From Salibacteraceae bacterium (GTDB taxonomy: Bacteria; Bacteroidota; Bacteroidia; Flavobacteriales_G; Salibacteraceae), in contig JAGYJZ010000007.1 of assembly GCA_018401875.1 (NCBI GenBank), positions 62,001 to 126,000 of the forward strand: a stretch of DNA of 64,000 bases, in the 5' to 3' direction. Of the stretch, positions 35,709 to 41,336 are shown piece by piece. Below the pieces are notes generated by a model. It was not told where the DNA came from, did not search any database, and worked only from the letters and a program-made list of their open reading frames with translations. Each line of letters starts with the position of its first letter. Position 1 is the stretch's first letter. The position numbers and the translations under genes are program-made.

Positions 35709-36281
35709 TTGAGCGTTAAAAAAGTTGAACGTATGATTAATTCGGGTGCCAAAGTTACACTAGAAGAAACAGAAGAAGGAACGCTGATTTCTATTTTACC
35801 TGAAACTAAACCTTGGCAGACGCTTATACTGGGCGGATGGATGGTGGTTTGGTTGTTTTGTGGTGCGTTTGTGATGCTGGGTGGCTACAAAGAGCTGCAG
35901 GGTGATGGTCGCATATTTCTACTCGTGTTTCTAGCATTTTGGGCCTATTTTCTCTTTTACGCAGGCCGTTCATTGATTTGGAATAAGGCCGGAGCAGAGT
36001 TTATACGGATTACCGCATCAACCCTCGATTACAAAAGAAGTTGGAGCGATTACGGAAGTGTAAAATCGTTTGATTTAGAAACGATCAAAAACTTAGGCGT
36101 TGTGAATTATGACGACAAGGCATTTGCTAAATCATACAACGAAGCCTTCTGGACGATGGGTGGTGAGATGATTGGCTTCGAATACATCGGACGAAAAATA
36201 GCCTTCGGTTTCAAACTCAGTGATAAAGATGCCAAAGCCATTGTCAAGCGAATCGACAAGCCAATGCGAGGGGTGAAATGA
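35709..36281 (+). CDS. uncharacterised membrane protein bordering the repeat island
   Basis: About 190 residues from a TTG at 35709, or 182 from ATG 35733. After a soluble start (KVTLEETEEGTLISILPETKP), two membrane helices follow (about 38-60 and 68-86), then a basic PH-like C-terminal half. This 'TK.W..' plus helical hairpin plus beta domain layout is common in unnamed bacterial PH-like membrane proteins. Its last 52 bases (36231-36282) are duplicated with three mismatches at 39776-39827, on the far side of the lipoprotein island. Confidence 0.6.
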   Translation: MSVKKVERMINSGAKVTLEETEEGTLISILPETKPWQTLILGGWMVVWLFCGAFVMLGGYKELQGDGRIFLLVFLAFWAYFLFYAGRSLIWNKAGAEFIRITASTLDYKRSWSDYGSVKSFDLETIKNLGVVNYDDKAFAKSYNEAFWTMGGEMIGFEYIGRKIAFGFKLSDKDAKAIVKRIDKPMRGVK

Positions 36282-36287
36282 GAGGCT

Positions 36288-36310
36288 TCGTGGTTCGTGG
36301 TTCGTGGTTC
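36288..36310 (+). repeat. 7-bp tandem repeat TCGTGGT
   Basis: Three uninterrupted copies of TCGTGGT just after the stop of the membrane protein, running into the first copy of repeat family C. A degenerate version (GTTCGGGGTTCGTAGTTC) precedes the third family-C copy near 39830. Confidence 0.7.
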
Positions 36311-36346
36311 TTTCGTTCACCTGAGGGTGTCCTCAGTTCATGGTTT
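36306..36346. repeat. repeat family C, copy 1
   Basis: GGTTCTTTCG, then a small hairpin CACC-tgag-GGTG, then a TCAGTTCATGGTTT-like end. The outer parts match copies at 36725 and 39845; the hairpin stem differs. Confidence 0.65.
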
Positions 36347-36454
36347 GCGCGCTGCACGATTTATAATTTGTGATTTAAAATTTATATTTCGTGATTGATC
36401 AATGATAATAGGAGAACAATCCAACCTTGAACTATGAACCTCGATCTTTCGAGT

Positions 36455-36476
36455 CGCTATTGCTGTGAAGTCTTCA
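36455..36476. repeat. repeat family B, copy 1 (short)
   Basis: CGCTATTGCTGTGAAGTCTTCA, the 22-bp core also found at 36879 and 37463. It includes an inverted repeat, TGAA-gtc-TTCA. Confidence 0.7.
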
Positions 36477-36520
36477 ACCGCTTCATAGCAGACCGAAATG
36501 GTTGGCTAGCTGTGTTGAGA

Positions 36521-36701
36521 TGCCTTGATTTCGAGAGGTTTAGTGCTCTTTTTCAGAAAGGTCATACTGAGGGCGACCGCAGGGAGCGTCTCGAAGTGGA
36601 CCTTGCTGAAAAAAGTAGTATCGATACGGTTTAACTGTAAAAGATCAAATAAAAAGGACATTATCCTTCATTTCTTTTGTGCCCAAAAGAAAGAAGCAAA
36701 G
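36521..36701. repeat. repeat family A, copy 1
   Basis: 181 bp matching 37101-37280 at a constant offset of 580. The middle 80 bp (36541-36620) has only three differences. It ends with hairpin TTTCTTTTG-tgcc-CAAAAGAAA. Apparent ORFs through it are repeat-derived. Confidence 0.85.
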
Positions 36702-36724
36702 ACTTACGAGGTTTTGAGGTTAAT

Positions 36725-36767
36725 GGTTCTTTCGTCCGCCTGCTGGCGGACTCAGTGCGTGGTTGAG
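36725..36767. repeat. repeat family C, copy 2
   Basis: GGTTCTTTCG, hairpin GTCCGCC-tgct-GGCGGAC, then TCAGTGCGTGGTTGAG. Confidence 0.7.
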
Positions 36768-36872
36768 TGCTGAAGGAGATTCATAATGGATAATTCATTA
36801 TTTATAATTGAAATACGATAAGCTTTCAGATATCAGCCAACCATAAACCTCTTAACCATTAACGCTGAACTT

Positions 36873-36921
36873 CCTCACCGCTATTGCTGTGAAGTCTTCA
36901 CCCAAGATTCAGCATTGCGGT
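36873..36921. repeat. repeat family B, copy 2
   Basis: 49 bp starting CCTCACCGCTATTGC. It differs from copy 3 at three positions near the right end and carries GTGAA-gtc-TTCAC. Confidence 0.8.
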
Positions 36922-37100
36922 TTACTCCAAGTGATAGACTATGAGCATCTCACACACTGGTTACGAAGAAGGAAAGGCCTTGAATTCAAAAAGCGTTCTG
37001 ATCGAATTGTGGCCTTAGTGAGAACGGGAAGCTCCGCTGGAAGCGGAGATCACCCGACCGAACTTAGGCTGCAAGAAGAGCAGGCTTTTTTTGAATTCAA

Positions 37101-37280
37101 TACCTTGAGCTCGAGAGGTTTAGTGCTCTTTTTCAGAAAGGTCATACTGAGGGCGACAGCAGGGAGTGTCTCGAAGTGGACCTTGCTGAAAATAGTAGTA
37201 TGGATATGTTGTAAATGTAAAAGACAAATAGAAAGAACATTTCCCTTCATTTCTTTTGTGCCCAAAAGAAAGAAGCAAAG
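37101..37280. repeat. repeat family A, copy 2
   Basis: 180 bp, second copy of the family A unit, followed by AAAAGGC and unrelated sequence. The start (ACCTTGAGCTCGAGAGG) matches copy 1 with small changes. Confidence 0.85.
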
Positions 37281-37456
37281 AAAAGGCTTGAAGACTTCAA
37301 GGCAATTGTGGTCAAGAAGGATTGAGTAAACGATGAACTTCATGTTATGACCACACCGCGGATGAGGCTTTTAGGTGCCATTAAGCCCCGGCCTGTGAAG
37401 GTGAGCTAATGCTGTAGCTCCTTGTAGGCTGCTTGCCAATTTCTCTTGCCCCAAAG

Positions 37457-37505
37457 CCTCACCGCTATTGCTGTGAAGTCTTCACCCAAGATTTAACATT
37501 GCAGT
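37457..37505. repeat. repeat family B, copy 3
   Basis: 49 bp, nearly identical to copy 2; last element of the repeat cluster before the lipoprotein trio. Confidence 0.8.
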
Positions 37506-37662
37506 ATGCTCGCGCGGGGGTTCAATGAAGCCCCCTCTGATTCTTGAGCGGTCGAATCATCGGGAGCGTATACCAAATAATAAATTATTCATTATTTATT
37601 AACGTTTAATTAATATTTATCCGAGATGAGGGGTATTATTGATTAAATTTAAACATCAAATC

Positions 37663-38142
37663 ATGAAAAAAGTACTATTTATGGGCTTCATTGCCCTTGC
37701 TGTAGTTGCTTGTTCAAAGGAGCAAGAACAAGAACTAACCACTGAAATCAAAACCAGTGCACCTGTTGAACAATATGCCATAGCTCCGAATATGGAAGCT
37801 AATATGAGTGCAGGTGACGATGACGATCTCTGCCAATCAGGATCGGCAAACTGCACTGGCATAACAATCGTAGGCGGCATACCCCAACTTCATCTGGATT
37901 TAATGGTTGAGATCGACAATGGCACAGAGTCTGATTTTTTAAATGATGCCAGCACTGCGGACTTAGCTGTGTTGGATCAAGGCGATGCTGATGTCGGCAA
38001 CTACTATAGTGATGTAGCCAATGGTAGAAGAACAATGTCTTATACAAGGTTAAACGGTACCAATGCAGTTGCCTTTCATTTTGCAGCCTGTTCATCATGC
38101 GCCTCCCAAAGCGCCCTAGACCAAGTTATTAGATCAAACTAA
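37663..38142 (+). CDS. unknown Cys-containing lipoprotein, first of a coupled trio
   Basis: About 159 residues from the ATG at 37663 (an upstream in-frame codon at 37639 is less likely). Lipobox AVVAC (Cys17). The mature chain is Asp/Ala/Ser-rich: a DDDDLCQSGSANC segment near 53-66, a middle hydrophobic patch (TGITIVGGIPQLHLDLMVEI), and a C-terminus with FAACSSCASQSALDQ. The CxxC and the earlier Cys pair suggest disulphides or metal binding. No family recognised. The stop overlaps the next ATG (TAATG), so translation is coupled. A copy of this junction appears at 39729-39784. Confidence 0.65.
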   Translation: MKKVLFMGFIALAVVACSKEQEQELTTEIKTSAPVEQYAIAPNMEANMSAGDDDDLCQSGSANCTGITIVGGIPQLHLDLMVEIDNGTESDFLNDASTADLAVLDQGDADVGNYYSDVANGRRTMSYTRLNGTNAVAFHFAACSSCASQSALDQVIRSN

Positions 38143-39251
38143 TGAACTATATCATATCTTTTCGCAAAGCCAAAGTCCTTATGCTCATAGGGTCTTTGGC
38201 TTTTGTTTTGGCTTGCACAGAAAAAGCTAATGATATAACTTCAAAGTTCGAGCCTGTTCTGACTGTTAGCCTCAAAGAAAACCCTACCTTGAATTCCATT
38301 GCAAACCTTTCGCTGATCGGAACCTTTCAAAGCAATGACACTAATTACTTCGCCCTCTATGACCGTGTTATTGGAACAATTCATTATTTCGATCAAGCAA
38401 CAGGAAAAGTGGTGGAATCATTCATCGTTCCAATTAACGATTCAATCAACTTCTTTCCTGCAATGATCAGTGTTTACGGCTGTGATAACATCCTGTATTT
38501 CAATACCGAAAACCAAACCCTTGTTAAAGCCAATAGAAAACAAATCAAAACTGAAAAGCACATCAAAGTTCATACTGGCGAAGTAACATGGCGCGTTGAG
38601 AATAGCTACACTAATTTAAAGTTTGATACGGCAGGCACAAAAATCATTTTCACTAATTGGGCAAGGTATGCTGATGGTGAAAATGGTGACAGCCTTATGG
38701 ATGAACGTTTCTTATATGTGCTGCTAGATACGAGTACTTTCCAATATGAATTCATTCCGATTAAACCAAAATACAAGCGTTTTACCGGTGAGAAGGAGAG
38801 GATTTATGATATAATGCCCTATGCCATTCACGATAAAAGTGGGAGGTATATTGGCTTTAACTCCTTTCTAAATGAAATCATGATATTTAAGGAGGGATCT
38901 TTTTCAGAATCAAGTGTAACTGGCACGGTGCATCCTATTGAGCAGGTTTATATTTTAAGGGGAGAATCAACCGAAAATTTTCTAGATCATTTCATTGGAA
39001 AACGCGCCCACAGATTATTGTATTCTTCGAAGCATGATTCATTCATAAGACGAATTAAAAAATGGGAAAAGAATGGAACCAGAGATGTCAACACCTACAC
39101 CGTTGAAGTTTTAAATAGTCAATTCGAGGTAAAAAATACTTTTGAACAAGGAAATGTAACACCCGTATTTTACCAATACGGAGACAATATTTACCTTAAA
39201 ATTATGAATCGTGATACACAAATTTTAACGTATTATGTGTTTACGAATTAG
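38142..39251 (+). CDS. DUF4221-like beta-propeller lipoprotein
   Basis: A 369-residue lipoprotein (lipobox FVLAC, Cys25). The mature part consists of repeated four-strand units with a WD/Kelch-like rhythm (IGTIHYFDQATGKVVES, NILYFNTENQTLVKANR, RFLYVLLDTSTFQYEF, RYIGFNSFLNEIMIF), as in the six-bladed propeller proteins of Bacteroidota. Overall layout resembles DUF4221 proteins, which I cannot confirm by search. Function is unknown in that family. It overlaps its neighbours by one base upstream and 17 bases downstream, so the three genes are translated together. Confidence 0.6.
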   Translation: MNYIISFRKAKVLMLIGSLAFVLACTEKANDITSKFEPVLTVSLKENPTLNSIANLSLIGTFQSNDTNYFALYDRVIGTIHYFDQATGKVVESFIVPINDSINFFPAMISVYGCDNILYFNTENQTLVKANRKQIKTEKHIKVHTGEVTWRVENSYTNLKFDTAGTKIIFTNWARYADGENGDSLMDERFLYVLLDTSTFQYEFIPIKPKYKRFTGEKERIYDIMPYAIHDKSGRYIGFNSFLNEIMIFKEGSFSESSVTGTVHPIEQVYILRGESTENFLDHFIGKRAHRLLYSSKHDSFIRRIKKWEKNGTRDVNTYTVEVLNSQFEVKNTFEQGNVTPVFYQYGDNIYLKIMNRDTQILTYYVFTN

Positions 39252-39657
39252 AATTTTGGTGTTAATTATCGTTTTGATGGTGGGCTGTGCAGGCGAAGTA
39301 TCCCCTGAACAAGAAGTTTATGAATACATCACAGGGAACCTTTCTTTAAGCGAAAAACAACATGATGTATTTATCCTTCAAAATCCAAAAACTGTTTGCG
39401 GTGGTTGCATAAACACAGGCAACACTATCTCCCAAAAGCACACCTCAATACCAACCATCACCACCCTTGAACGAAAAAGATTAGTGCGCTCAGAAAACTG
39501 CATTATTGATACAACTGGCAGATTATTTGACCTCTTACCGTCTACTCTTTTGTCTTACGTCCTCTTTAAAGATGATGAGAACCTTAGCTTCATTCTACTC
39601 GAACAAAAAAACTATGCATTGATTGAAAGCAAGATTGTTGAACTTGGTTTGGACTAA
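39235..39657 (+). CDS. small lipoprotein with a CGGC motif, third of the trio
   Basis: A 140-residue protein with lipobox LMVGC (Cys18). A thioredoxin-like CxxC, VCGGCINTGN, is at about residue 58 after a short strand (HDVFILQNP); the region after it (TIERKRLVRSE, DTTGRLFDLLP) could complete a small alpha/beta fold. The redox role is only a possibility; no active-site proline or full thioredoxin pattern can be seen. The ATG lies inside the propeller gene (17-base overlap). Confidence 0.6.
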   Translation: MCLRIRILVLIIVLMVGCAGEVSPEQEVYEYITGNLSLSEKQHDVFILQNPKTVCGGCINTGNTISQKHTSIPTITTLERKRLVRSENCIIDTTGRLFDLLPSTLLSYVLFKDDENLSFILLEQKNYALIESKIVELGLD

Positions 39658-39728
39658 GATTAACTCATAAGTTGCTTAGAATTAACCTATCGGGTTTAAG
39701 TAGTATCTAGCATGTAATGCGTCTACAT

Positions 39729-39784
39729 CAAGTTATTAGATCAAACTAATGAACTATATCATATCTTTTCGCAAAGCCAAAGTC
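39729..39784. repeat. exact 56-bp copy of the trio gene 1/gene 2 junction
   Basis: Identical to 38122-38177, which covers the last codons of the first trio gene, the TAATG overlap and the start of the second. Here it has no ORF context and runs straight into the membrane-protein copy. Confidence 0.95.
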
Positions 39785-39827
39785 ATTGTCAAGCGAATCG
39801 ACAAGGCAATGCGAGGGGTGAGATGAG
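39776..39827. repeat. 52-bp copy of the membrane protein 3' end
   Basis: Matches 36231-36282 with three differences. The two copied pieces share GCCAAAG at the joint (39776-39782), a seven-base microhomology, so this is a recombination scar. Confidence 0.92.
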
Positions 39828-39844
39828 GTTGGTTCGGGGTTCGT

Positions 39845-39886
39845 AGTTCTTTCGGCTGCTTTCGGCAGCCTTAGTTCGTGGTTGAG
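39845..39886. repeat. repeat family C, copy 3
   Basis: AGTTCTTTCG, hairpin GGCTGC-tttcg-GCAGCC, then TTAGTTCGTGGTTGAG. The remaining sequence to 40192 is AT-rich then palindrome-rich (TTGCGA...TCGCAA near 39947-39966) and shows no gene. Confidence 0.7.
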
Positions 39887-40192
39887 CCCGCAGGCGATTG
39901 ATGTTTTATAATTCATAACTATTCCCACCACGAAGCACTTCCTTATAGTTGCGAGGAGTTAGTCGCAAGGAGCGAGTTACGAGTGACACAAGCAACCATC
40001 ACCTCGTTCCTTATTGTCGCGTGGAACTGGGCGCGAGGGACAAGGTTCGGGCGCTGGAATTTACCGTAAACTGCGAACATCGAATCAAAAATCATCAGTC
40101 AACCTCGCGCACCACTCCTTTCGTGTCGAGCCGCTAATTATCAACCATGAATTATCCGTCATCAATCCTCTCTCTCGAAACCATCACACGAT

Positions 40193-40205: not shown

Positions 40206-41336
40206 TTGAAATTTGAACTTCAACATACTGACAAAGCTTCCTCTGCGCGAGCAGGCAAGCTTACTACCGATCACGGTGAAATATTGACGCCTATTTTTAT
40301 GCCGGTGGGCACTGTGGCTTCTGTGAAAACGGTGCATCAACACGAACTGGACGAAGACATCAAAGCGCAGATCATTTTGGGAAATACCTATCACCTGTTT
40401 TTGCGGCCCGGCATGGATGTGATGCAAAAGGCCGGTGGGCTTCACCAATTCATGAATTGGAATAAACCCCTCTTGACCGACAGTGGTGGATACCAAGTGT
40501 ATAGCTTGGCGAAAAGCAGAAAGATTACGGAAGAAGGCGTAACGTTTCAATCGCATATTGACGGTTCGCGGCATTTCTTTACGCCCGAAAGTGCCATGGA
40601 TGTGCAGCGTCAAATCGGTGCAGACATTATTATGGCGTTTGACGAGTGTCCACCATATCCGTGTGATGAACGATACGCAGAGAATTCTATGCACTTAACC
40701 CACCGCTGGTTGAAGCGCTGCTGCGATCATTTTGATCAAACGGAAGGATTATACGGCTATTCGCAAACGCTTTTTCCGATTGTGCAGGGTAGCACATACC
40801 CCCATTTGAGAAAGCAATCGGCTGAGTTTATCGCATCAATGGAGCGCGAAGGCAATGCCATTGGCGGCTTGTCGGTTGGCGAGCCGCATGAAAAAATGTA
40901 CGAATCTACCGAGTTGGTATGTGGAATTTTGCCAAGCGATAAACCCCGCTATTTGATGGGAGTAGGAACTCCTGAGAATATTTTGGAATGCATTGCCCTC
41001 GGAGTAGATATGTTTGACTGCGTAATGCCCACACGCAATGCGCGACACGGTATGCTCTACACATGGAATGGAATCGTGAACATCAAGAATAAAAAATGGC
41101 ACAGCGACTTTTCTCCGCTCGATGAAAGCGGCACGAGCTATGTCGATTTCACTTATTCGAAAGCGTATGTGCGCCATTTGTTTTCGAGCGGTGAAATGCT
41201 CGGAATGCAGATCGCAAGCATCCATAATTTGGCATTCTACCTCGATTTGGTGACGCAGGCACGGCAACATATTTTGGCGGGTGATTTTTACGAATGGAAG
41301 TCGAAAGTCGTTCCTGTCATCAAACAGCGCTTATAG
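40206..41336 (+). CDS. tgt: tRNA-guanine transglycosylase
   Basis: A 376-residue enzyme from the TTG at 40206 that exchanges guanine 34 for the queuosine precursor preQ1 in tRNAs with GUN anticodons. Substrate loop: LLTDSGGYQVYSLAK near 89. GGLSVGEPHEKMYE and the nucleophile motif GVDMFDCVMPTRNARHG follow. The usual zinc site CxCxxC is replaced: the matching stretch is DESGTSYVDFTYSKAYVRH, with no Cys, though the His of ASIHNLAFYL remains. I recall the same loss in other Bacteroidota Tgt. No queuosine-pathway genes are adjacent. The permease gene follows immediately. Confidence 0.93.
   Translation: MKFELQHTDKASSARAGKLTTDHGEILTPIFMPVGTVASVKTVHQHELDEDIKAQIILGNTYHLFLRPGMDVMQKAGGLHQFMNWNKPLLTDSGGYQVYSLAKSRKITEEGVTFQSHIDGSRHFFTPESAMDVQRQIGADIIMAFDECPPYPCDERYAENSMHLTHRWLKRCCDHFDQTEGLYGYSQTLFPIVQGSTYPHLRKQSAEFIASMEREGNAIGGLSVGEPHEKMYESTELVCGILPSDKPRYLMGVGTPENILECIALGVDMFDCVMPTRNARHGMLYTWNGIVNIKNKKWHSDFSPLDESGTSYVDFTYSKAYVRHLFSSGEMLGMQIASIHNLAFYLDLVTQARQHILAGDFYEWKSKVVPVIKQRL

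Follow-up and report, generated by a model that had tools for sequence, protein, structure and literature searches.

A putative template-switch scar at a repeat-rich breakpoint between a membrane protein gene and tgt in a Bacteroidota genome

The window, i.e., the whole stretch of 64,000 nucleotides that was analysed, comes from contig C34, which belongs to a Bacteroidota genome bin (G000; 2.62 Mb, 36 contigs, 82% complete). A small membrane protein gene, gene M, was located on the forward strand at 35709-36281. Gene M showed 83-51% identity to relatives in tblastn, and no confident match was found in Pfam or NCBIfam. Downstream of it lie, in this order, noncoding repeats (1.4 kb), an operon of three lipoprotein genes, i.e., the trio operon (37666-39657), a stretch X (39658-39728), and two short copied sequences joined to each other. 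The right flank is tgt (40212-41336, forward strand).

The trmD-tpr-M neighbourhood is kept across the genus. In relatives with an identifiable neighbour, gene M faces tolC or RND efflux genes, and tolC lies directly after gene M in four genomes (G004, G006, G007, and G011). The tgt gene faces mutL, which adjoins it divergently in most relatives, i.e., 8 of 13 within the stretch read, and there tgt lies away from gene M. Gene M was next to tgt in no relative searched. Because the two genes occupy different places in relatives, their adjacency is a rearrangement breakpoint specific to the present genome or its lineage. Here mutL was found on contig C7 beside another gene, and no tolC orthologue was found in the incomplete bin. 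A sequence of about 100 bp on the tgt side, sequence E (39905-40006), has just one further substantial copy, located next to mutL (C7:1351-1443) with 75% identity. Since sequence E stands beside both genes, which are neighbours in relatives and apart here, the tgt/mutL breakpoint also left a repeat. The arrangement before the event was preserved in no genome searched.

The trio genes lie on the forward strand and gave no convincing family match. Gene 1 (37666-38142) encodes a lipoprotein of about 158 aa, whose structure model was poor. Gene 2 (38142-39251) encodes a lipoprotein predicted by AlphaFold2 (pLDDT 74.8) to form a beta-propeller, and gene 3 (39235-39657) a small lipoprotein with a CxxC motif that is invariant in four copies. 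The best PDB match of the gene 2 model was 3s9j (E 1.1e-12, TM 0.56), a DUF4221 beta-propeller lipoprotein. The predicted fold resembles DUF4221, whereas gene 2 has no DUF4221 match in Pfam, has only 14% identity, and shares its operon with two unnamed lipoproteins.

A second trio copy is present in the same genome at C36:20492-22480 (locus L052, 6493-8481), between sufS and a parE-like gene, with 45-53% identity (45% for gene 1). Genes 1 and 2 were absent from 59 relatives, and distant copies of all three genes were found in two genomes, G044 and G388 (loci L061 and L063). A scan of 84,980 species genomes gave no relative of the gene 2 of the window or of its paralogue, and for the gene 2 of L063 gave only its own record. 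No match to gene 2 was found in plasmid or phage records. The trio is a sporadically distributed accessory operon of no named family; this genome has two copies, and two distant Bacteroidota also carry it. Near the operon, both distant genomes encode a predicted helix-turn-helix regulator (L061 3307-3666; L063 197-556).

Each of the four operons found has a 12-18 bp hairpin whose start lies some 15-25 nt past the stop codon of gene 1, i.e., at 38166-38203 in the window and at about 7946-7973 in L052, 2545-2575 in L061, and 1294-1325 in L063. The stems of the distant operons have no sequence relationship to that of the window, the fold z-scores range from -3.1 to -4.7, and a T-rich stretch follows each hairpin. 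This pattern suggests partial termination, by which gene 1 would be more abundant than genes 2 and 3. A simple scan called no intrinsic terminator at 38166-38203, so the terminator role stays a suggestion.

The noncoding region after gene M (36283-37660) consists of dispersed intergenic repeats arranged as a mosaic, and it has 47 matches in its own genome, itself included, several of which fall at contig ends. Within the mosaic, a 183-bp dispersed-repeat unit occurs twice (36520-36702 and 37100-37281) with 91% identity. A REP-like hairpin repeat lies directly after gene M (36290-36370, forward strand) and is 89% like a copy on contig C7. Another lies on the tgt side (39828-39915, forward strand). 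In the stem of the REP-like repeat, three of five pairs are changed on both sides in a compensatory manner, a count reached by 10 of 500 shuffles. Three occurrences of the hairpin motif were found in contigs C34 and C36 (298 kb), over which the self-comparison was made, and all three are at the present locus.

The first-pass annotation noted that gene M and its copied end are each followed by a degenerate TTCGTGG run and a member of one repeat family. Both runs and both repeats are present; the two repeats are not one simple copy, since they are only 64% alike, and each resembles some copies elsewhere more closely (up to 75% for the tgt-side repeat). They look like separate family members. As in REP/REPIN systems with RAYT (PMC3116915), the repeats are dispersed and intergenic, the short hairpin covaries, and one RAYT-type gene is present in the genome, on contig C12 and over the RAYT cut-off; the genome also has three IS200-type transposase genes. 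Unlike REP/REPIN, the mosaic is longer, has few copies, and is without a demonstrated inverted doublet. No copy of the REP-like motif was found beside the RAYT-type or IS200-type genes; for the RAYT-type gene, a flank within a 3.2-kb locus on C12 was searched and it was not linked to a repeat copy. Known RNA families gave only weak microRNA matches far below cut-offs.

The copied sequences follow stretch X, an orphan with no match elsewhere in contigs C34 and C36. The first patch, J' (39729-39784), is identical over 56 bp to its donor J (38122-38177), which spans the end of gene 1 and the start of gene 2, and the two are unlike on both sides. The second patch, A' (39776-39827), copies its donor A (36231-36282), the last 52 bp of gene M with the stop codon, at 49 of 52 positions, and is alignable on to about 39854. 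Donors and patches are all on the forward strand. When the whole assembly was searched with 39700-39900, only the stretch itself and the two sources were matched (E = 2.6e-23 and 3.6e-21). The exact copy, the near copy and the shared GCCAAAG at which they meet had been described correctly from the letters alone; the 7-bp overlap stands at 38169-38175, 36231-36237, and 39776-39782. The frequency of a shared run of at least 7 bp at a random pair of points, computed for the region, is about 0.0008. At the junction of stretch X and J', weak similarity was seen (CTAGACCAAG vs CTACATCAAG). A 25-codon open frame, MNYIISFRKAKVIVKRIDKAMRGVR, runs across the joint (39749-39826) and is probably meaningless. 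The joint was absent from the viral contigs searched.

The three differences between A and A' are at 36238, 36261, and 36277. At the first, gene M has C, and the copy (39783) has T. Because the base of the copy agrees with donor J and not with A, this difference is a trace of the switch point rather than a mutation. The switch thus lies just past the microhomology, and only two of the three changes counted earlier remain in A'. At 36261, gene M has CCA (Pro) and A' has GCA (Ala), and alanine was found at this position in G001, G006, G008, and G011, i.e., in all four relatives whose gene end could be read. A' thus retains the older state, and it is gene M that has changed. Over the roughly 99 bp of both patches there are two differences, one of which probably arose in gene M after copying. 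The exact 56-bp identity is therefore a weak ground for the view, put forward earlier, that the event is recent.

The hairpin at the gene 1/gene 2 junction (38166-38203; 18-bp arms, DNA fold z -3.6) is one of only three of such strength in the 164.5 kb scanned, a strong hairpin being defined by arms of at least 16, at most 2 mismatches, and a loop of 2-6. The end of J' falls 12 nt into its 18-nt left arm. The left end of J' is at the foot of a weaker stem-loop (z -2.6). The close alignment of A and A' extends as far as 36315 and breaks off at the REP-like hairpin. Read from left to right, both patches end at hairpins, since J' ends in the arm and the A/A' match stops at the REP-like hairpin. 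The coincidence of a hairpin with a patch end was noticed post hoc.

It is reasonable to consider the joint at 39729-39827 as a replication template-switch scar of the MMBIR type at a repeat-rich, lineage-specific breakpoint, and we hold this reading to be fairly probable. Two copies, a microhomology, a hairpin at the switch point, repeats, and a breakpoint are all present. The reading is supported by two short patches with nearby donors, the same orientation, and the 7-bp microhomology at J'/A'. The new strand, which would have moved from left to right, would have left stretch X and then taken 56 nt across the gene 1/gene 2 junction as its template. It would have stalled 12 nt into the arm of the strong hairpin, and fork stalling would be the cause of the switch. 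The strand end would then have re-annealed via GCCAAAG at a point 1.9 kb upstream. From there, synthesis would have run through the end of gene M into the first part of the next repeat, and within this REP-like repeat the strand would have crossed over to the tgt side. The gene-end repeats are too divergent to place this last switch or to read microhomology at the joint of A' and the repeat. One single event may have made the whole scar; the sequence fits one complex event as well as several simple ones.

Such joints are known from starving E. coli: the junctions contain inserts from neighbouring DNA and 3-30 bp of microhomology, 22 of the 90 fall in REPs, and there is a preference for stems (PMC3161906). 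The MMBIR model accounts for them by serial template switches (PMC2621351). The present joint is like these long-distance template-switch junctions in its nearby short inserts, the microhomology at J'/A', and the REPs and stems at its breakpoints. Unlike them, it is a fixed and partly diverged scar in a natural Bacteroidota bin and is known only as an end product.

A stepwise history is possible, if rather unlikely. Tandem duplication at the GCCAAAG direct repeats (38169 and 36231) would have been followed by deletions and REP-mediated unequal exchange, after which the 56-bp and 52-bp remnants alone would be left past gene 3. In bacteria, short direct repeats mediate duplications and deletions (PMC3411829), the region holds an internal duplication, and the polarity from J to A is that of a duplication joint. 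This polarity is the part of the first-pass proposal, a tandem duplication with later deletion or a circle-like joint, that fits. A joint of 36231-38177, however, would sit upstream of the intact gene 2 and not after gene 3. Because the joint lies downstream of gene 3, a single duplication or circle joint does not explain the order unless further events are added, and the stepwise history takes two illegitimate junctions or more, together with an exchange. Stretch X, moreover, lacks the similarity to gene 1 that is expected from a degraded second operon. Such an operon was for this reason rejected as the source of J'.

It is improbable that the trio operon as such is a fragile site, in which the gene 1/gene 2 hairpin would regulate expression, stall replication, and aid the movement of the operon among repeat-rich breakpoints.

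The segment was also likened to an integrated element between direct repeats. Such an element, integrated site-specifically at the gene M 3' end, would have used A and A' as attachment sites and lost its integrase, and it would account for the 50-bp direct repeat at a gene end and for a sporadic cargo operon with 38.5% G+C against a mean of 43.1%. However, the segment has neither an integrase nor a transposase gene, as had been noticed, i.e., no recombinase. The inner side of the right repeat copies internal cargo sequence, and the operon copy on C36 has no match to A or A' sequence at its locus. An empty site in related genomes had been named as the check, and none is there to compare, with gene M and tgt apart across the genus. 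A tRNA attachment site was rejected as well, no tRNA being found in the window. An integrated element is highly improbable.

A simple assembly or amplification chimera is very unlikely, because A' differs from A in keeping the alanine of relatives where gene M changed, and 7-bp overlaps are not known to join de Bruijn contigs, although the bin is fragmented and incomplete and several dispersed repeats lie at contig ends.

The scar is most likely a known kind of copying accident seen in unusual detail, i.e., slippage at DNA hairpins, and not a mobile element. If the template-switch reading is right, the locus offers a natural scar of this kind that can still be read, from bacteria that have been little studied, and its switch point falls within a strong hairpin arm. 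It would also mean that an accessory operon flanked by direct repeats can look like an integrated element without being one. The kept hairpin of the operon is a separate lead and may bear on unequal production of three uncharacterised lipoproteins.
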